Below the pieces are notes generated by a model. That model did not search any database and was not told the DNA's origin. It was given only the letters and a program-made list of their open reading frames with translations. The position numbers and the translations under genes were made by a program. A stretch of 64,000 nt of DNA from Actinoplanes philippinensis (GTDB lineage: Bacteria > Actinomycetota > Actinomycetes > Mycobacteriales > Micromonosporaceae), in contig NZ_FONV01000001.1 of the NCBI RefSeq assembly GCF_900113015.1, positions 248,001 to 312,000 of the forward strand, given 5' to 3'. Below are positions 47,324-57,378 of the stretch, piece after piece; within the stretch, counting starts at the first letter, position 1, and each line of letters opens with the position of its first letter.

Positions 47324-49315
47324 TCACTGCTTGCCGATGACTGTCACCCCACGTGGCGGGAGGATCCCGGCGCCCGGCAGGTCGCCGAGATCCACCGGCT
47401 CATCGGTGCGGTTGATCAGGAACCAGTGGTCGCCGCGGACCGCCAGCTCGACCCGGCCGCCCAGCCCGGCGGGCAGCTCGCTGCGCACCCCGGCCGGGCC
47501 GAGCAGGCCGGGCAGCAGCGCGCCGATCCCGTCCGGGCCGAGACGGGTGGAGACGTACGCCGCCGACCCGGGTCCCACCCGCCGCCGGGTCACCGCCGCC
47601 CGTTCCGCGTGGTCCCCGGTCTTGTACCGGGCCAGCACCTCCACCCCGTCCCCGGTCACGTCGATCCGGTCGGTCCAGATCGTGCCGGTCGTGCCGTTGT
47701 CCAGCTCGGCGCTCTCGTGGTCGAGCAGCGGCCCGAACTCCTCGATCCGGATGCCCAGCAGCTCACGCAGCGCTCCGGGGTATCCGCCGAGCCAGACGTG
47801 GTCGTTCTCGTCGACGATCCCGGAGAAGTACGTGGTGACCAGGTGCCCGCCGCCGTTCACCCAGTCCCGCAGCCGGCCGGCCAGCGCGGCCGGGACGACG
47901 TGCAGGATCGGGGCGATCAGCATCCGGTACTCCTCCAGCGGCCCGCCGGCCGGGAGCACGTCCACCCGGATCCCGGCGTCGAGCAGCGCCGTGTACCAGT
48001 CCAGCGCCTCCTGCCGGTAGCGCAGCCGCTCGGTGGGGTGCGAGTCGTGCTCGGCCACCCACCACGACTCCCAGTCGAAGACGATGCCGACGGCCGCCCG
48101 GGCCCGGTGCGAGCCGGCGATCGGGGCCAGCTGCCGCAGCCGTTCGCCCAGCGCGGCCACGTCGCGGAAGACGTCGCTGTCGGTTCCGGCGTGCGGCAGC
48201 ATCGCCGAGTGGTACTTCTCGGCGCCGGCCCGCGACTGGCGCCACTGGAAGTAGCAGACCGCGTCGGCGCCGTGCGCGACGTGGGTGAGCGAGTCCCGTT
48301 CCAGCTCGCCCGGCTTCTTCGCGACGTTGACCGGCTGCCAGTTGACCGCGCTCGTCGAGTGCTCCATCAGGAACCACGGGCGCCCGCCGGCGATGTTGCC
48401 GGTCAGGTTGGCCGAGAAGGAGAGCTCGTCGCGGGCCTGCGGGCCGGGCAGCACGTAGTGGTCGTTGGAGACGAAGTCTAGCTCGGCGGCCCAGTCGGCG
48501 TAGTTCATCCCCTTCGTCTCGCCCATCACCATGAAGTTCGTGGTGACCGGCACGTCCGGGGTGAACCGCCGGAGCAGGTCGCGTTCGGCGATCAGGTGGT
48601 CCTTCAGCGCGTCCGAGGAGAACCGCTTGAAGTCCAGCTGCTGGGTCGGGTTCGGGTACGAGGCGGCCAGCCGTGGCGGCAGCACCTCCTCGAAGTCGTC
48701 GTAGCGCTGCGACCAGAACGCGGTCGCCCACGCCTGGTTGAGCGCTTCGACGGTGCCGTAGCGGGCCCGCAGCCAGTGGCGGAAGGCGGCCGCCGCGTCG
48801 TCGGAGTAGTCGTAGACGTTGTGGCAGCCCAGCTCGTTGCTGACGTGCCAGGCCACCAGCGCCGGGTGGGCGGCGTACCGACCGGCCAGCTCACCGGCCA
48901 GCCGGAGAGCGTATTCCCGGAAGACCGGCGACGTGGGCCGCCAGTGCTGACGGCCGCCCGGCCAGAGCGTCTCGCCGGTCCGCGTCACCGGCAGGATCTC
49001 CGGGTGCTTGCGGGTCAGCCACGGCGGCGGCGAGGCGGTGGCGGTGGCCAGGTCGACGGCGATCCCACCGGCGTGCAGCAGGTCCATCACCTCGTCGAGC
49101 CACGCGAAGTCGTACTCGCCGTCGCGGGGCTCGAGCCGGGCCCAGGAGAAGATCGCGAGGGAGACGATGGTGACGCCGGCCTCGCGCATCGCCCGTACGT
49201 CGTCGTCCCAGACCTCGCGGGGCCACTGGTCGGGGTTGTAGTCCGCGCCGAACTCCAGACGCGCCGACCCGGCGCGGCGAAGCCAGCGCCGGGTCGTCTC
49301 GTTGCTTTGCGTCAT
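47324..49315 (-). CDS. GH42 family beta-galactosidase
   Basis: The 663-residue enzyme has the GH42 layout: TIM barrel with GADYNPDQWPREVW at the start, the acid/base Glu in WHVSNELGCHN (E161), the nucleophile Glu in FLMEHSTSAVNW (E318), then the trimerisation domain and a small C-terminal beta domain. It hydrolyses terminal beta-galactosides, in soil bacteria often galacto-oligosaccharides from plant galactans. No signal peptide, so it acts inside the cell on imported sugar. The ATG overlaps the binding-protein stop by 4 bases and is the last gene of the LacI-controlled operon. Confidence 0.93.
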   Translation of the reverse strand: MTQSNETTRRWLRRAGSARLEFGADYNPDQWPREVWDDDVRAMREAGVTIVSLAIFSWARLEPRDGEYDFAWLDEVMDLLHAGGIAVDLATATASPPPWLTRKHPEILPVTRTGETLWPGGRQHWRPTSPVFREYALRLAGELAGRYAAHPALVAWHVSNELGCHNVYDYSDDAAAAFRHWLRARYGTVEALNQAWATAFWSQRYDDFEEVLPPRLAASYPNPTQQLDFKRFSSDALKDHLIAERDLLRRFTPDVPVTTNFMVMGETKGMNYADWAAELDFVSNDHYVLPGPQARDELSFSANLTGNIAGGRPWFLMEHSTSAVNWQPVNVAKKPGELERDSLTHVAHGADAVCYFQWRQSRAGAEKYHSAMLPHAGTDSDVFRDVAALGERLRQLAPIAGSHRARAAVGIVFDWESWWVAEHDSHPTERLRYRQEALDWYTALLDAGIRVDVLPAGGPLEEYRMLIAPILHVVPAALAGRLRDWVNGGGHLVTTYFSGIVDENDHVWLGGYPGALRELLGIRIEEFGPLLDHESAELDNGTTGTIWTDRIDVTGDGVEVLARYKTGDHAERAAVTRRRVGPGSAAYVSTRLGPDGIGALLPGLLGPAGVRSELPAGLGGRVELAVRGDHWFLINRTDEPVDLGDLPGAGILPPRGVTVIGKQ

Positions 49316-50655
49316 TTAACTGTGAAGCCCTGTTCGGTTCCGTACTTGACCGACGCGTCCTGCCAGGCCTTCAGACCGTCGGTCAGGCTGCCCTGGCCGA
49401 TGTACGCCTTGCCGACGGTGTCGCCGTAGATGCTGTTGGCGTAGACCTGGAAGGGCAGGTACGACCAGCCGGTGACGACCTGCCCGGCGGAGGCGGCGAG
49501 CACCTCGTTGACCTTCTGGCCGCCGAAGTACGGGAACTCCTTGTTCTGGAACTCCGGGGCGGCGAGGTGCTTGGTGGTGGCCGGGAACGCGCCGTCGTCG
49601 ATGCGGGTCTGCGCGCCCTCGTCGACCGCGGCGTACTTCAGGAACGCGTACGCCAGGGTCTTGCTGGCGCCCTTCTCCGGGATGGCGAGCGAGCTGCCGC
49701 CGTTCTCCGCGGTCGCCTTGCCGCCGGCCTCCCACTGCGGCATCGGGGCGACCCGCCACTTGCCGTTCGCGGGCGCCGCGCCCTTCTCCAGGTTGCTCGG
49801 CATCCACGCGCCGGTGACCAGGGTGGCGATGGTGCCGTCGCCGAGGCCCTTGTACCACTCGTCGGTCCAGCCCGGGACCGGCGAGAGAAGCTTCTTGTCG
49901 ATCAGCTTCTGCCACTGCGCCGCGAACTTCTGGGCGCCCGGGTCGGACGCGAAGTTGACCGTGACGTCGGTGCCGTTGACCTGGTACGGCTTGCCGCCGG
50001 CCTGCCAGATGAGGCTGGTGGTGAAGCCGGCGTCACCGGAGTCGCTGGTGATGTACGCCTTCGGGTCGGCGGTGTGCAGCTTCTCGGCGGCGGCCGCGTA
50101 CTCCTCCCAGGTGGTCGGCACCGCGATCTGGTGCTTGTCGAACACCTCCTTGTTGTAGAAGAGCGCCATCGGCCCGGAGTCGATCGGGAAGCCGTAGATC
50201 TTGTCGCCGGCGTGGACCGCGTTCCAGGTGCCCGGGGTGAACGTGCCGTTGAGCGCGGCGGCGCCGTACGTGTTCAGGTCCACGACCGACTTGGCCAGCG
50301 CGAACTGCGGGAGCGCGTAGTACTCGATCTGCGCCACATCGGGAACACCGGTGCCGGCCGTGATCGCGTTCTGCAGGGCCGTGTACTGGTCGTTGCCCGT
50401 ACCCGCGTTGGTGAGGTTGACCTTGACCTTGGGGTATTTGGTCTGGAAGTCGGCGGCGACCTTGGTGATCGTGGTGTCCCACGCCCACACGTTGATGGTG
50501 CCCCCGGCGTCCAGCGCGGCCTTGATGTCGGCCTCGGAGACGCTGGTCGGGGCCGCCGTGCCGTCCGTGCCCTCATCGGAGCTCGAACAGCCGGTGGCCA
50601 GCAGGGTTATCGACATGGCGGCGCCGAGGAGCGCGCGCCGGCGGGTGATCGACAT
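49312..50655 (-). CDS. Sugar ABC transporter substrate-binding lipoprotein
   Basis: The 447-residue protein has a lipoprotein signal with lipobox LLATGC (C23) and the type 1 extracellular solute-binding fold: INVWAWDTTITKVAADF, VPDVAQIEYYALPQFA, YGFPIDSGPMALFYNK and VPTTWEEYAAAAEKL. It captures oligosaccharides for the two permeases upstream. Because it is coupled to GH42, the ligand is probably a galactoside. GGAAGGGA lies eight bases before the ATG. Confidence 0.92.
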   Translation of the reverse strand: MSITRRRALLGAAMSITLLATGCSSSDEGTDGTAAPTSVSEADIKAALDAGGTINVWAWDTTITKVAADFQTKYPKVKVNLTNAGTGNDQYTALQNAITAGTGVPDVAQIEYYALPQFALAKSVVDLNTYGAAALNGTFTPGTWNAVHAGDKIYGFPIDSGPMALFYNKEVFDKHQIAVPTTWEEYAAAAEKLHTADPKAYITSDSGDAGFTTSLIWQAGGKPYQVNGTDVTVNFASDPGAQKFAAQWQKLIDKKLLSPVPGWTDEWYKGLGDGTIATLVTGAWMPSNLEKGAAPANGKWRVAPMPQWEAGGKATAENGGSSLAIPEKGASKTLAYAFLKYAAVDEGAQTRIDDGAFPATTKHLAAPEFQNKEFPYFGGQKVNEVLAASAGQVVTGWSYLPFQVYANSIYGDTVGKAYIGQGSLTDGLKAWQDASVKYGTEQGFTVK

Positions 50656-50672
50656 TGACGCAATCCCTTCCG

Positions 50673-51599
50673 TTATTGCTTGACGCTGCCCGCGGCCAGA
50701 CCTGACTGCCAATAACGCTGGAGCAGCAGGAACGCCACGGTCAGGGGGACGATGGTGAGCAGCGAACCGGTGATCACGAGGTCGTAGACGACGTCGCCGC
50801 CGACCGTGGTGGCCTGCCTGCTCCACTGGTAGAGACCCAGCGTGAGGGGGTAGAGGTCGGCATCCTTCAGCATGATCAGCGGGAGGAAGAAGTTGTTCCA
50901 GGTCGCGACGATGTTGAACAGCAGCACCGTGACCAGGCCGGGAGCGAGCAACGGCAGGGACAGCTTGAAGAAGCTGCGGAACTCGCCGGCGCCGTCCACC
51001 CGGGCGGACTCGAGGATCTCGTTGGGCACGGCCTCGCTGGAGTACGTCCACATCAGGTAGAGGCCGAACGGCGACACCAGCGACGGGATGATGATCGCCC
51101 ACGGGGTGTCGGTCAGCCCCATCTTCGCGAACATCAGGAACGTCGGCACGGCCAGCGCGGTCGGCGGGACCGCGATGCCGCCGAGGATCAGGGCGAACAC
51201 CGCCCGGCGGCCGAGGAAGTCGAACTTCGCCAGCCCGTAGCCGGCCAGGGCCGCCAGCAGGGTCGCTCCCCCGGCGCCGACCAGCACGTAGAGCACGGTG
51301 TTCAGCAGCCAGCGGCCGAAGATGCCGTCCTGGTAGGTGAACGCGCGCCCGATGTTGTCGAACAGCGCGAAGTCGCCGGAGAACCAGAGGCCGAACGTGC
51401 CGAGCAGATCCGACTGCGTCTTGGTCGAGCTGATCAGAAGCCAGATCAACGGCAACAGGGTGTACGCCAGCATCAGGCCGGTGACGATCGTGAGGGTCAC
51501 GCTGCGGCGTGGCCTGCTGACCGACGCCCGTACGGTGACCGGTTTGCGGGAGCGGCCCGGGCTCTGCGCCGCCGCCCGGACGGTGGGCGTGGTGGACAC
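50673..51599 (-). CDS. Sugar ABC transporter permease, MalG type
   Basis: The 308-residue protein has six membrane helices and the EAA loop EILESARVDGAGEFRSFFKL, which contacts the ATPase. Its 45-residue N-terminal extension is basic and typical of actinobacterial homologues. It starts directly next to the stop of the MalF-type gene. No ATPase gene is in the operon, so the importer probably uses a shared MsiK-type ATPase encoded elsewhere. Confidence 0.92.
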   Translation of the reverse strand: MSTTPTVRAAAQSPGRSRKPVTVRASVSRPRRSVTLTIVTGLMLAYTLLPLIWLLISSTKTQSDLLGTFGLWFSGDFALFDNIGRAFTYQDGIFGRWLLNTVLYVLVGAGGATLLAALAGYGLAKFDFLGRRAVFALILGGIAVPPTALAVPTFLMFAKMGLTDTPWAIIIPSLVSPFGLYLMWTYSSEAVPNEILESARVDGAGEFRSFFKLSLPLLAPGLVTVLLFNIVATWNNFFLPLIMLKDADLYPLTLGLYQWSRQATTVGGDVVYDLVITGSLLTIVPLTVAFLLLQRYWQSGLAAGSVKQ

Positions 51600-52466
51600 T
51601 CAGGCCGCCCCCTTCAAGGCACGTCCCTGGAACAGGTACGCCACGACCATGGTCGCCAGACCCATCACCAGGGCGACCGTCGCCGAGTAGTTGACCTGCT
51701 GCCCGGCGAAGGACAGCTGGTACGCGTAGATGTTCGGGGTGAAGTAGGTGGTGATCGAGTTGGGCGCCAGCGTGTCCAGGATCTGCGGCTCGTTGAACAG
51801 CTGGAAACTGCCGATGATCGAGAACACGGTGGCCACCACCAGCGGACCCCGCAGCGCCGGCAGCTTGATGGCCCGGATGATCCGGAACTGCCCGGCCCCG
51901 TCGATGGCGGCCGCCTCGTAGAGCGCGGTGTCCACGACCCGGAGGCCGGAGTACAGGATGAGCATGTTGTAGCCGACGAACTCCCAGGTCACGATGTTGC
52001 CGATGCTGGCCAGGATCAGGTCCGGCGACAGCGGGTCGGGCAGGGTGATCCCGAACAGCTCGTTGATGTTGCCGACCAGCCCGAACCGGGTGCCGTAGAG
52101 GAAGCCCCACATCAGGGCGGCCACCACGGCCGGCACGGCGTACGGCAGGAAGATCGCGACCCGGAAGAACCCGGCCCCGTAGAGCCGGCCGCTGTCGATC
52201 GCCAGCGCCACCAGCAGGGCGAGTCCCAGCATGATGGGCACCTGGACCAGCAGGAACAGCGAGACGCGGGTGAGCGCCTCCCAGAACTGCGGGTCGCCGA
52301 AAACCTTGGTGTAGTTCTCGAAGCCGACGAAGCTGGTGCCGCCGACCAGTCTGGTGCGGAAGACGCTGAGGTAAGCCGCATACGCGATGGGCGCCAGGAA
52401 GACCAGTCCGAAGACCGCGAGGAACGGACCGGTGAATTGCCACCCGATCCATGAACGACGGGTCAC
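51600..52466 (-). CDS. Sugar ABC transporter permease, MalF type
   Basis: The 288-residue protein has six membrane helices and the EAA loop ALYEAAAIDGAGQFRIIRAI. It is the first gene of the operon: MalF type, MalG type, binding protein, GH42. The start lies 18 bases from the proximal LacI operator, so repressor binding would block transcription. Confidence 0.92.
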   Translation of the reverse strand: MTRRSWIGWQFTGPFLAVFGLVFLAPIAYAAYLSVFRTRLVGGTSFVGFENYTKVFGDPQFWEALTRVSLFLLVQVPIMLGLALLVALAIDSGRLYGAGFFRVAIFLPYAVPAVVAALMWGFLYGTRFGLVGNINELFGITLPDPLSPDLILASIGNIVTWEFVGYNMLILYSGLRVVDTALYEAAAIDGAGQFRIIRAIKLPALRGPLVVATVFSIIGSFQLFNEPQILDTLAPNSITTYFTPNIYAYQLSFAGQQVNYSATVALVMGLATMVVAYLFQGRALKGAA

Positions 52467-52484
52467 GCCTGCCCCCTCCCGAGG

Positions 52485-52500
52485 ATGTTTACGTAAACAT
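52485..52500. promoter_or_regulatory. LacI-type operator O1 (perfect 16-bp palindrome)
   Basis: ATGTTTACGTAAACAT is a perfect palindrome with a central CG, as recognised by LacI-family proteins. It lies 18 bases before the MalF-type gene and 23 bases centre to centre from an identical copy, so the two lie on about the same face of the helix. Confidence 0.88.
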
Positions 52501-52507
52501 GAGCGTC

Positions 52508-52523
52508 ATGTTTACGTAAACAT
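52508..52523. promoter_or_regulatory. LacI-type operator O2 (identical copy)
   Basis: This copy is identical to O1 in all 16 bases. A candidate promoter for the lacI gene has -10 TATAGT at 52532-52537, and this operator covers its -35 region. The pair can therefore repress both the transport operon and the regulator itself. Confidence 0.88.
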
Positions 52524-52566
52524 GACTGCCGTATAGTGGCACGGGCCACAAATCACGGTCAAGGAG

Positions 52567-53628
52567 ATGATCACGATCGAACCGCCCCGGCTCCGTGCCG
52601 CCTCGGACGTCCCCGGCGGGCGTCGCAAGCAGCGCGTCTCCATGGCCGACGTGGCCCGCCTCGCCGGAGTCTCCTCGCAGACCGTCTCGCGCGTCGCCAA
52701 CGGCGCGGCCGGCGTCGTCGACACCACCCGTGAGCACGTGCTCGCCGCCATGAGCGAGCTCGGCTACCGGCCCAACAGCGCGGCCCGGTCGCTGCGCTAC
52801 GGGCGCTTCAACACGATCGGCGTCATCCTGTTCGGGCTGTCGTCCATCGGCAACAGCCGCACGGTCGAGGCGATCGCCACCCACGCCGCCGCCGAGGGCT
52901 ACGCGATAACCCTCATCCCGGTCGGCGCGGCCACCCAGGACAACGTCATGGGAGCGTTCACCAGGATGGGTGAGCTCGCCGTCGACGGGGTCGTCCTGAT
53001 CATCGAGGTGCACCTGCTCGACGCGTCGGCCGTCGCCATCCCGCCCGGCGTGCACGTGGTCGTCGTCGACTCCGACGCGGGCGACCGCTACCCGGTCGTC
53101 GACACCGACCAGGCCGACGGGGCGCGGCAGGCCGTCCGGCATCTGCTCGCGCTCGGGCACCGTACCGTCTGGCACGTCGCCGGCCCCGCCGAGTCGTTCG
53201 CCGCCGAGCGGCGCGCCGGCGCCTGGCGCCGGGTCCTCGAGGAGGCCGGGCGGCCCGTCCCGGCCCCCGAGCGCGGGGACTGGTCGGCCGACTCGGGCTA
53301 TCACGCGGGGCTGCGGCTCGCCGCCGACCCGGACTGCACGGCCATCTTCGCCGCCAACGACCAGATGGCGCTCGGCGTGCTGCGGGCCCTGCACGAGCGT
53401 GGCCGGCGGGTGCCGGCCGACGTCAGCGTGGTCGGGTTCGACGACATCGCCGACGCCGGGTCCTATCTGCCCCCGCTTACCACCGTCCACCAGGACTTCG
53501 CCGAGGTCGGGCGGCGCTGCGTGGACGCGCTGCTGCGCCAGATCCACGACGAGCCGACGGGCGCCGGCACCGATCTGGTCGCCACCCGGCTGGTGATTCG
53601 CGGGAGCACGGGGCCGGTCGGGTCGTGA
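52567..53628 (+). CDS. LacI family transcriptional regulator
   Basis: The 353-residue protein has the LacI HTH (SMADVARLAGVSSQTVSRVANG, about residues 25-46) with the hinge helix NSAARSLRYG, and a periplasmic-binding-like effector domain (SVVGFDDIADAGSYLPPLTT). Galactosides from the adjacent GH42 operon are the likely inducers. The start places AAGGAG directly against the ATG, with no spacer, which is odd; a downstream ATG at codon 26 would leave the HTH barely complete. Two identical operators lie upstream. Confidence 0.92.
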   Translation: MITIEPPRLRAASDVPGGRRKQRVSMADVARLAGVSSQTVSRVANGAAGVVDTTREHVLAAMSELGYRPNSAARSLRYGRFNTIGVILFGLSSIGNSRTVEAIATHAAAEGYAITLIPVGAATQDNVMGAFTRMGELAVDGVVLIIEVHLLDASAVAIPPGVHVVVVDSDAGDRYPVVDTDQADGARQAVRHLLALGHRTVWHVAGPAESFAAERRAGAWRRVLEEAGRPVPAPERGDWSADSGYHAGLRLAADPDCTAIFAANDQMALGVLRALHERGRRVPADVSVVGFDDIADAGSYLPPLTTVHQDFAEVGRRCVDALLRQIHDEPTGAGTDLVATRLVIRGSTGPVGS

Positions 53629-54104: not shown

Positions 54105-54794
54105 TCAGGCGGTTCGTTTGTTGCGGCGGCGCTCGCCGATCTCCCAGGCCAGGATGTACTGGCGGATCGTCCGGGCCAGCTCCTCCTTGGTGTCGAACGT
54201 GAGGATCAGGTGCTGGCCGGGGTCGCCGTGCGGAGCGTCCCGGACGTTGTGGACCACACCGCTGAGCTTCGCCTCGGCGGTGCCCAGCCACACCGTCGCC
54301 TCGACCCGGTCGCCCTGGGTGAGCGAGGTGGCCTCGTCGATCCAGCAGCGCAGGCCGCCCTCGCTGATGTCCAGCAGGACACCCTCGGCCGGCTGGCCGC
54401 TGACCTCGGCGTCCAGGTGCACGACGGCGCCGGCGCCGCCACGGACGAACTCCCGGCGGTTGTCGTGCCGGGCGGCGCCCGACGGGGTGAGGATCCAGCG
54501 CAGCGGGGCGCTGCCGGACACCACGACGAGGCGGCAGGGCAGCACCACGCGGGTCCGTGGCGGCGCCCAGAAGATCTCGAACTCCTGGCCGGGCTCGAAC
54601 ATCGCGAGGCCGGTGGTCTCCAGCGGGGCGGCCACGCTGAACGTGTCGCCGTCGATCGACTCGAGCTTCGACCGGAGGTTCACTCCGTCGCCGAGGACCA
54701 GGAAGACGGGGTCACCGATCGCCGGCAGCTCGACGCCGGCCAGACCTCCGGCCCCTGGAACCGACATCACTCCAGCTGCACCGTTGCTCATCAT
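54105..54794 (-). CDS. PilZ domain c-di-GMP-binding protein (YcgR-like)
   Basis: The 229-residue protein has an N-terminal YcgR-like beta domain (VFLVLGDGVNLRSKLESIDG) and a C-terminal PilZ domain with both binding motifs: RREFVR (RxxxR) and DISEGGLRCWI (D/NxSxxG). YcgR homologues bind c-di-GMP and change motility. Many Micromonosporaceae, such as Actinoplanes, make flagellated spores, so motility control is plausible. The gene is divergent from the sigma factor gene; a 9-bp inverted repeat lies between. Confidence 0.9.
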   Translation of the reverse strand: MMSNGAAGVMSVPGAGGLAGVELPAIGDPVFLVLGDGVNLRSKLESIDGDTFSVAAPLETTGLAMFEPGQEFEIFWAPPRTRVVLPCRLVVVSGSAPLRWILTPSGAARHDNRREFVRGGAGAVVHLDAEVSGQPAEGVLLDISEGGLRCWIDEATSLTQGDRVEATVWLGTAEAKLSGVVHNVRDAPHGDPGQHLILTFDTKEELARTIRQYILAWEIGERRRNKRTA

Positions 54795-54902: not shown

Positions 54903-54938
54903 CTCGTTGGAAAATCTCGGGAAGGGACTGCACAGATC

Positions 54939-55481
54939 GTGGCCCGGATGCGTCCATGGGGAGTGACCTTCGAGCAATTCGCGTTGGCCCGCCTGCCAAG
55001 CCTGCTCCGGTACGCGGTCGTCCTCACCGGCGACCGGGATCTGGCCCAGGATGTCGTGCAGGAGGTGCTGGCGCGGGCCCAGGTCCGGTGGAAACGCATC
55101 AGCGACGCGGAGTCGCCCGAGGCGTATGTGCGGCGCATGGTGCTCAACGAGTACCTGTCGTGGCGGCGCAGCTGGGCGGTGCGGCACATCCACGCGGCCG
55201 GGGAACGCTTGATCGAGATCGACGACGCTCGCGGCGGGGTCCGCGACCACGCCGACGGTGTGGTCGAGGCCGACGCGCTCTGGCACCGGCTTGCCGCCCT
55301 CGGGCGCAAGCAGCGGGCGGTGCTGGTGTTGCGCTACTACGAGCAGCTGGACGACGACGCGATCGCCGATCTGCTGGGGTGCGCTCCCGCCACGGTGCGC
55401 AGCCACGCGTCGAGGGCACTGCAGATCCTCCGGCTCGATCAGCAGTCGGAGATTCGAGTCCACGCCGAGGAGAGGTCGTGA
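54939..55481 (+). CDS. SigE-family ECF RNA polymerase sigma factor
   Basis: The 180-residue protein has sigma region 2 (YAVVLTGDRDLAQDVVQEVL) and region 4 (KQRAVLVLRYYEQLDDDAIA, PATVRSHASRALQIL), matching the SigE-family group abundant in Micromonosporaceae. GTG at 54939 is used with GAAGGG about twelve bases upstream; an in-frame ATG follows three codons later. It overlaps the next gene by 4 bases (GTGA). The following membrane protein is in the place usually taken by an anti-sigma factor, so control by that protein is inferred. Confidence 0.88.
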   Translation: MARMRPWGVTFEQFALARLPSLLRYAVVLTGDRDLAQDVVQEVLARAQVRWKRISDAESPEAYVRRMVLNEYLSWRRSWAVRHIHAAGERLIEIDDARGGVRDHADGVVEADALWHRLAALGRKQRAVLVLRYYEQLDDDAIADLLGCAPATVRSHASRALQILRLDQQSEIRVHAEERS

Positions 55482-56317
55482 ACGAGCACGGAGACCGGCT
55501 GCGCGAAGCCTTCACCAAGCACGAGACCGAGACGCCGGACCCCGCAGCGGTCTACGCCCGCGTCGAGGAGCTGGCGAAGAAATACCGGTGGCGCCGGTTC
55601 GGCGTGCAGGCCGCGGGCGGGGTGGCGCTGAGCGCCGGCCTCATCGCGGGCATCACCCAGCTCCCGGCGATCCTGCCCGCCTCCCCGGCCGCGACCAACG
55701 CGCCCGCCTTCGAGGTCGCCGCCCCGATCGCGACGATCGACCCGGCCGCGCCGCTCACCGACGAGGAGACCAAGGCGGGTCTCGCCGCCTACTTCGAGGC
55801 CGGTTTCGGCTACGACAACGCGGTCGAGCTGGCCAAGCTGTGGAACCTGCCGGGTGACCAGATCGCCCAGGTCAAGGCCGTCGCCGGGCGCAAGCTGCTG
55901 GCCAACGAGACACTGCCGGTCACCGCCAAACCCAACACCGACGAGCCCACCACCGGGGAGCCGGAGGACACTGAGCTGTCCCGGCAGACCGAGGAGTTCT
56001 TCCTGCAGGGCTACGACTGGGACGACGCGGTCGTGCTGGCGAAGCTGTGGAAACTCGACGACCCGGGCTCGGCCAAGGCCGAGGCGGGCAAGCGCCTGCT
56101 CGCCGGGGAGACCCTGCCGGGCGGGGTCAAGCCCGACCCGAAGCAGGTCGAGGAGGGTAACAAGGCCCGCCTGGCGAACGTCTTCTGGGACGCCGGCTAC
56201 GACGGCGAGGACGCCGAGAAGCTGGCGAAACTCTGGAAACTCGACGACACGTACGACGCCAAGGTCGAGGCCGGCCGACGGATCCAGGCCGGCGAGACGC
56301 TGCCGATCCAGCCGTGA
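55478..56317 (+). CDS. Single-pass membrane protein with three LAKLW-type repeats
   Basis: The 279-residue protein has a 45-residue cytoplasmic N-terminus (HETETPDPAAVYARVEEL), one membrane helix (FGVQAAGGVALSAGLIAGI) and an external part with three repeats of about 60 residues. Each repeat has G-Y/F-x-x-D/N-A-x-x-LAKLWxL (AVELAKLWNL, AVVLAKLWKL, AEKLAKLWKL), a short acidic stretch, and AG-R/K-x(4)-A-x-ETLP (for example AGKRLLAGETLP). I recognise no family. The layout fits an anti-sigma-like sensor. The gene overlaps both neighbours by 4 bases, so it is translated with the sigma factor and the amidoligase. The repeats are Glu/Lys-rich and could be substrates of the amidoligase. Confidence 0.82.
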   Translation: MNEHGDRLREAFTKHETETPDPAAVYARVEELAKKYRWRRFGVQAAGGVALSAGLIAGITQLPAILPASPAATNAPAFEVAAPIATIDPAAPLTDEETKAGLAAYFEAGFGYDNAVELAKLWNLPGDQIAQVKAVAGRKLLANETLPVTAKPNTDEPTTGEPEDTELSRQTEEFFLQGYDWDDAVVLAKLWKLDDPGSAKAEAGKRLLAGETLPGGVKPDPKQVEEGNKARLANVFWDAGYDGEDAEKLAKLWKLDDTYDAKVEAGRRIQAGETLPIQP

Positions 56318-57378
56318 CCCCGGAGCTGCGCCGGCGGATCGGCTTCGAGATCGAGCTGATGGCCCCGCCCGGGGTCAGCCGACGCACCCTGGCCATGGAT
56401 CTGGCCGGACGCTGCGGGGGCAGCGTCCGGCCGGTGTGGCACCACGACAGCGAGCCGTCGCTGGTTCCCGGGCTGGGACGGTTCCTGCATCTCACGCAAG
56501 GTTTCGAGGTGCGCCGGCCGGGCGGGGAGCTGCTCTGCACGCTCGTCGACGACGTCACCCTGCTGCACGGTCTCGACCCGCGGTCCCCGGCCGTCCCGGG
56601 CTGGCACCGGATCCTCACCGACGACACCCGGCTGCTGCGCCTGCTCGCGCTGCAGTGCGATCCCGGCGCCCACCTGCCCGACGTGCTCGCACCGGCGGCC
56701 CGCCTGTGGGGCACCACGGTCCAGCAGCACGGCCGGATCTTCCGGCTCGACGACCCGGCCGGCGCGACGGTCGCCCTCGCCTCCCCCGCCGGCGGCGAAC
56801 GCGAACGCCCCTGCGAGATCGTCACCCCACCGATCGCCGCGAACCATCACGCCGCGCTCGCCGAACTGCTCGAACCCGCCCGCGACCTCGGCTTCACCGT
56901 CCCTCATGAGGCGGCCGTGCACCTGCACGTCGACGGCGCGCCGTTCCGCGCGGCGGACGCCCTGGCCAACGTGGTGCGGCTGTTCGCCCACTACCGGGAG
57001 GCGCTGCGCGAGGTGCTGGCCACCAACCCGGCCTGCCGCCGGCTCGCGCCGCTCCCGGCGCCGCTGGTCACCGCCGTCGCCGGCAGGCCGACCACCGAGG
57101 AGTTGCGCCGAGCCGCCACCGACGGCGGCCTCACCAAGTTCTTCGACGTCAACCTCACCCAGGTGCTGACCGACACCCCGATCCGCGACACCGTCGAGAT
57201 ACGCATCCTGCCGGGCGCCCTCGACGCCTCCGCGATCATCCACCGGGCCGCCCTGATCGACCTGCTGCTGGCCCGCTGCGCCGATCCGGCGCCGATCCCG
57301 CCTCCGCCGGACCCCGCCGCCGCGGTGGAGACGTTGCTGGACATGGCCGCCGAGACCCATGCGGGGTACGGCCACTAG
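56314..57378 (+). CDS. Amidoligase family enzyme (COOH-NH2 ligase fold)
   Basis: The 354-residue protein has the motif series of the amidoligase family related to glutamine synthetase/gamma-glutamylcysteine ligase: IGFEIELMAPPG (metal-binding Glu pair), ERPCEIVTPPI, AVHLHVDGAPF, LTKFFDVNLTQ and DTVEIRILPGALDA. Enzymes of this fold use ATP to join a carboxylate to an amine. It lacks a signal peptide, so it acts in the cytoplasm. As third gene of a sigma factor operon, coupled by GTGA, it may modify the cytoplasmic tail of its membrane neighbour, a peptide or a wall precursor. The target is unknown. Confidence 0.82.
   Translation: MTPELRRRIGFEIELMAPPGVSRRTLAMDLAGRCGGSVRPVWHHDSEPSLVPGLGRFLHLTQGFEVRRPGGELLCTLVDDVTLLHGLDPRSPAVPGWHRILTDDTRLLRLLALQCDPGAHLPDVLAPAARLWGTTVQQHGRIFRLDDPAGATVALASPAGGERERPCEIVTPPIAANHHAALAELLEPARDLGFTVPHEAAVHLHVDGAPFRAADALANVVRLFAHYREALREVLATNPACRRLAPLPAPLVTAVAGRPTTEELRRAATDGGLTKFFDVNLTQVLTDTPIRDTVEIRILPGALDASAIIHRAALIDLLLARCADPAPIPPPPDPAAAVETLLDMAAETHAGYGH

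Follow-up and report, generated by a model that had tools for sequence, protein, structure and literature searches.

Sigma factors that work with a membrane partner are a known kind of system, and membrane anti-sigma factors of the RsgI type carry exchangeable outer sensor domains. Amidoligases of the PF12224 family are widespread, and we know of no characterised member and no assigned substrate. The SigE factor of S. coelicolor is without an anti-sigma factor and does not target its own promoter, and the accompanying protein CseA is a lipoprotein (PMC6767563). A. missouriensis is without CseBC-SigE (PMC13251363). The signature of carboxylate-amine ligases is GhExE, and PafA joins a carboxylate to protein lysines by an isopeptide bond (PMC2588565).

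The window (the whole stretch of DNA analysed, 64,000 nt from the 10.4 Mb genome of Actinoplanes philippinensis, G000) carries three open reading frames on the plus strand at 54963-57378. In order, these encode a SigE-like ECF sigma factor (54963-55481), a repeat-containing membrane protein (REP, 55478-56317) and a PF12224 amidoligase (AMI, 56314-57378), joined by two stop/start overlaps of 4 bp. The operon described in the first-pass annotation is real, and since the same order and overlaps are repeated in about 42 loci of the genus, the arrangement is not a chance one. Our preferred reading, to which we give a probability of roughly 45%, is that the Actinoplanes form is an envelope module in which the sigma factor would be released by a surface signal and AMI would act on REP. 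Sequence comparison supports three elements of this reading well, namely the pairing of REP with AMI, the sigma-partner segment of REP and the autoregulated promoter.

Like the sigE-cseA-cseB-cseC arrangement (ECF39, TIGR02983), the locus combines a SigE-like sigma factor with an exported partner in an envelope setting (PMC6767563), and two-component genes are present in sister layouts of the REP-AMI module. It differs in having an amidoligase, a 4 bp overlap between the sigma factor and REP genes, and a promoter that is apparently autoregulated. No two-component or lipoprotein gene adjoins the sigma factor gene here, and the SigE-CseABC arrangement is not what is found. REP resembles the RsgI type in its short cytoplasmic sigma-partner segment, its single membrane pass and an outer domain common to another exported protein (layout B, below), whereas it has no similarity to a known anti-sigma family in Pfam or NCBIfam and its outer repeat is tied to an amidoligase. 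AMI shares a predicted glutamine-synthetase-like fold and the GhExE signature with PafA and YbdK/GCS2. Unlike PafA it belongs to PF12224 and has an exported repeat protein as partner; no Pup-like partner or proteasome genes recur near the AMI loci, which thus do not represent a pupylation system. In Micromonosporaceae, a sigma factor followed by a LytR-CpsA-Psr (LCP) protein is a further relative, with a homologous N-terminal segment and a sigma factor from the sister clade (99/93 in the tree), but there the outer domain is LCP and no amidoligase was seen.

The two downstream genes prove to be the stable part of the module. Searches of 68 genomes of the genus with profile A3 (the cross-family repeat, REP) and profile A1 (the amidoligase, AMI) found each protein in 66, the same two genomes (G031 and G032) being without both. 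Among 396 genomes of the phylum, REP occurs in G000 and G515 only, and AMI is matched over its full length in the same two; in one further genome the amidoligase profile matched only 52 residues (E 7e-4). Gene order was compared at 81 AMI loci, comprising 80 from the amidoligase alignment (one genome per species) and that of G515 from the phylum sample. By profile, the gene immediately 5′ of AMI, on the same strand, encodes REP in 78 of these, and the count rises to 79 when the parsing of L141 is corrected. Adjoining pairs occur in Actinoplanes, Cellulomonas, Promicromonospora, Kineococcus, Curtobacterium, Agreia and others. At L130 the REP gene is elsewhere within the same cluster as AMI, and at L162, from an alphaproteobacterium, the neighbour of AMI is a divergent REP-like protein bearing a signal peptide. 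The AMI gene of the operon is broken in G033 (a draft genome) and G645; in G645 (L282, L283) it is split over two frames, and an intact AMI gene lies elsewhere, less than 1 kb from a five-repeat REP. The first-pass annotation had suggested that the amidoligase and the repeat protein are functionally linked; this is strongly supported by the adjacency (79/81) and co-occurrence (66/68 and 2/396), and the gene linkage in relatives that the annotation had set as a test is kept within the genus.

The accompanying regulators vary. Layout A (sigma-REP-AMI, as in the window) is found in Actinoplanes relatives, Virgisporangium, an Acidothermaceae genome and Kineococcus xinjiangensis, and layout B (secreted REP, AMI, sigma factor, membrane REP) in Cellulomonas, Promicromonospora, Sanguibacter and Kineococcus vitellinus. 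REP and AMI are accompanied by a histidine kinase and a response regulator in Curtobacterium, Agreia, Frigoribacterium and a Microbacteriaceae genome (layout C), and stand alone at loci such as L071, L137, L135 and L163 (layout D), with the 4 bp overlap of REP and AMI present at L071 and L137 even though the sigma factor is missing from L071. The only recurrent neighbours of AMI are REP, sigma factor and two-component genes. The sigma factor is not indispensable as a third member: a two-component system takes its place in Microbacteriaceae, and several loci have REP-AMI alone. Judged by occurrence in the same genomes, adjacency and varying regulators, the conserved core is REP plus AMI, passed on as a pair in many soil actinobacteria, and not the three-gene set. 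Sigma/anti-sigma versus two-component control around the same pair makes this a clear natural case of regulator swapping. One contig of Cellulomonas phragmiteti bears the module twice, as the neighbouring copies L130 and L158, and a two-component system precedes one copy; L158 does carry such a system. The large upstream genes in Cellulomonas were also considered as a two-component system and rejected, as they resemble a 2-oxo-acid dehydrogenase subunit and a protein without assignment.

In Pfam, the sigma factor scores 32.8 bits with Sigma70_r2 (cut-off 24) and 49.3 bits with Sigma70_r4_2 (cut-off 25.7). Its best subfamily match is TIGR02983 (SigE family), at 136.7 bits just below the curated cut-off of 141.55. 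In the tree, the operon sigma factors from layout A form one group with those from layout B, with only moderate support for one origin (88/35). ECF sigma factors are very numerous in the genome, where 91 regions match TIGR02983 (E <= 0.001), 19 of them above the cut-off.

The upstream regions of 34 sigma factor genes of layout A, from the Actinoplanes group, share the element TGCACA-N16-CGTC about 8 nt before the GTG of a conserved VTFEQFA start (exact TGCACA in 29 of 34 and exact CGTC in 31 of 34, counted by eye). In the window this predicted promoter of the sigma operon occupies 54929-54954 on the plus strand (C17:302929-302954), with TGCACA beginning at 54929 and CGTC ending at 54954, so that the gene start given previously (54939) falls within it. 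Together with the conserved VTFEQFA start, the position of the promoter makes the GTG at 54963 the most likely start. The sigma factor message would be almost leaderless, as the -10 element ends about 8 nt before the GTG both here (54929-54962) and in relatives. About 20 nt 5′ of the -35 element, most relatives have a conserved A-rich plus TTCGG-like stretch, a possible UP element or regulator site.

The same element was found at REP genes with no sigma factor neighbour. Among eight such orphan REP genes from other Actinoplanes-group genomes, exact TGCACA-N16-CGTC precedes six and near matches precede the other two, and a spacing of 34-35 nt to the GTG, like that of the sigma operon, is seen in five of the six exact cases. 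From its density in G000 (83 sites on both strands), a chance match within 220 nt is expected about once in 1000. A search of the 68 genomes by motif only, without protein similarity, led to one more orphan REP gene and one more sigma factor gene, the six further motif sites examined comprising one orphan REP, one sigma factor gene and an unconvincing remainder. Occurrence of the element before both the sigma operon and unlinked REP genes is good evidence that the sigma factor controls its own operon and the orphan REP genes, and the shared promoter makes this regulon directly testable. A wide regulon is not proposed, the whole-genome scan of G000 giving 83 sites against 63 in a reversed control, which is barely higher; most of the other sites look like chance. 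A promoter equivalent was sought before REP in layout B and none was found consistently.

REP consists of a charged N-terminus, one hydrophobic stretch and three outer repeats. The cytoplasmic N-terminal segment (about residues 1-40, 55478-55597, plus strand) is followed by a predicted transmembrane segment (about residues 41-66, 55598-55675), placed at the Kyte-Doolittle maximum after a positively charged stretch. REP matches no family in Pfam or NCBIfam and hence no known anti-sigma domain (ZAS or other). Matches to its N-terminal segment were found by tblastn in other Micromonosporaceae membrane proteins, and in 10 of the 11 loci where the segment was re-detected, the gene immediately before it, in the same orientation, encodes a SigE-like sigma factor. 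The outer domain in those proteins is of the LytR-CpsA-Psr type (L072 by Pfam, most others by eye). Secreted REPs that have no sigma factor partner are also without the segment. Thus the segment tracks sigma factors whatever the outer domain, which supports the earlier suggestion that the membrane protein may be the partner of the sigma factor: its cytoplasmic N-terminus resembles one found in otherwise unrelated proteins downstream of SigE-like sigma factors. Its predicted role is that of an anti-sigma factor, probably holding the SigE-like factor at the membrane.

The three outer repeats (55781-55918, 55982-56119 and 56174-56305, all plus strand) were recovered independently by the repeat profile and carry, by the A2 invariant columns, the invariant residues Lys133 (codon 55874-55876), Lys200 (56075-56077) and Lys262 (56261-56263). 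They had been described as LAKLW repeats, and while their number holds, LAKLW is not the whole unit and is part of a three-helix unit of about 45 residues. The consensus is AF..AGYD..DA..LA.LW.....D..(A/T/V)K..AG..LL.G..LP. Among 285 repeats from 117 proteins, which share descent and so are not independent samples, Trp is present in all 285 and Lys in 282, with Arg in none. The Gly and Pro are practically invariant, and one position is Asp or Glu in 92%. Other basic columns of the repeat, including neighbouring ones, mix Lys and Arg. Conservation of Lys to the exclusion of Arg suggests that the residue serves chemistry at the lysine amino group; a tight Lys-Trp-Gly packing cluster would leave the same trace. 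At L159 (Frigoribacterium sp. MEB024) this lysine is lost in two of three repeats.

AlphaFold2 models REP with three flexibly joined three-helix units, with pLDDT above 90 over most of their length. Sequence and fold searches of the PDB gave no solved relative of the repeat, and a resemblance to UBA domains was discarded as a chance-level Pfam match (E 0.19). Operon REPs of the genus have two or three repeats and end at or near a conserved LP(I/F)xP; across all REPs the number ranges from one to five.

AMI matches PF12224 (Amidoligase_2) with 63.6 bits (cut-off 22) over profile positions 2-237 of 245, and its nearest relatives are in Actinoplanes (A. xinjiangensis, 90%). The amidoligase motifs had been described as intact, and this was confirmed with 23 homologues, down to 52% identity: in the sequence G10-F11-E12-I13-E14, which fits the GhExE signature, G10, F11, E12 and E14 are invariant, and further invariant residues, other charged ones among them, include H43, D45, E47, H203, H205, K275, N280, E295 and R297. 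The AlphaFold2 model (pLDDT 90.9) has glutamine synthetase (E 9.9e-4) and YbdK (E 3.1e-3) as its best Foldseek matches, with modest TM-scores. By signature and modelled fold, AMI is placed in the carboxylate-amine ligase superfamily, with a glutamine-synthetase-like fold and, as its predicted activity, the ATP-dependent formation of amide bonds. It is probably cytoplasmic, as there is no evident signal peptide.

In the preferred reading, the cytoplasmic segment of REP would tether the SigE-like factor at the membrane, and a change at the cell surface, sensed by the outer repeats, would free it. The freed factor would use TGCACA-N16-CGTC promoters to transcribe the operon that encodes it and also, in some species, REP genes located elsewhere, and its activation would thereby yield more REP and more AMI. 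The outer domain of REP is most likely a sensor in such an envelope-stress circuit. AMI would form an amide bond on REP, the best candidate acceptor being the invariant lysine of each repeat, before or during export. We consider the chances even that REP is the substrate. The pairing, the translational coupling and the repeat lysine favour it, and the proposed lysine chemistry has a precedent in PafA, which has the same fold. Against it, AMI is predicted to be cytoplasmic and the repeats are exported, so modification would have to come before export, and the invariance of Lys, Trp and Gly could instead reflect a structural cluster or a site for a ligand. Taken a step further, this would be a new enzyme-substrate system in which a PF12224 ligase amidates one lysine per exported repeat, read out by swappable sigma/anti-sigma or two-component circuits, a proposal we make tentatively. 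An exported repeat protein paired with the enzyme and carrying a near-invariant lysine per repeat is in any case a directly testable substrate candidate for PF12224. No description was found of a PF12224 amidoligase with an exported lysine-repeat protein and exchangeable regulators; the 2009 amidoligase survey of Iyer and others lay outside the search, and priority is uncertain.

The location of AMI would be no difficulty if its substrate were a wall precursor or some other small molecule of the cytoplasm, such as the carboxylate of a stem peptide, and the exported REP bound the product. REP, fused to the sigma factor partner, would then read in the wall what AMI had written, both proteins would be in the expected compartments, and the invariant Trp, Lys and Gly could make a ligand site. 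The hosts of the module differ in wall chemistry, however, and offer no obvious common substrate; none of the constant neighbours is a gene for wall biosynthesis, and where pairing is strictly one to one and translation is coupled, an enzyme with its protein partner is the more typical case. A cell-wall setting is nevertheless hinted at by the sister clade of sigma factors, which is paired with LytR-CpsA-Psr wall-ligase domains, and by the LCP genes that adjoin REP-AMI in two Microbacteriaceae (L155 and L161); the sigma factor family also includes a wall-stress regulator, the S. coelicolor SigE (PMC6767563). This compartment logic and the wall-related sister system make a wall-precursor substrate a serious, if lesser, possibility.

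Two other explanations appear improbable. REP could be a multi-core precursor of an exported RiPP-like product, with AMI as the tailoring ligase and the regulators controlling production. The adjacency of precursor and enzyme, a repeat number varying from one to five and the short secreted REPs of several families would suit this, and multi-core precursors modified by amide-forming ligases have a precedent (PMC5934393). Yet the repeats are predicted to be folded three-helix domains (pLDDT above 90), neither a peptidase nor a dedicated transporter is a constant neighbour, and REP is membrane-anchored in Actinoplanes, so we regard it as unlikely. We give still less weight to control of the sigma factor from elsewhere, as by CseBC for SigE, which would leave REP and AMI as mere targets. 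The SigE prototype is indeed run by a two-component system without an anti-sigma factor (PMC6767563), and such a system flanks REP-AMI in Microbacteriaceae and at L158, but the N-terminal segment goes specifically with adjoining sigma factor genes, also in proteins whose outer domain is not of the REP type, and secreted REPs lacking a sigma factor partner are without it.

Conserved flanking genes were sought around the operon loci, and flanks were common to close relatives only. In the window, a PilZ-domain protein is encoded on the minus strand at 54105-54794, divergently to the sigma operon. The close relative L076 has a homologue in the vicinity of its operon, separated from it by a single gene, whereas the other loci compared have none there. 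Further upstream, a probable glycosidase, sugar ABC transporter genes and a LacI-type regulator (47324-53628) form an ordinary sugar-use cluster. Elsewhere in the Micromonosporaceae, at L072, L073, L267, L268, L270, L275-L277 and L279, a SigE-like sigma factor gene is directly followed by one for a membrane protein that combines the N-terminal segment with a LytR-CpsA-Psr-type outer domain, and these proteins are possible fusions of an anti-sigma factor with a wall ligase.
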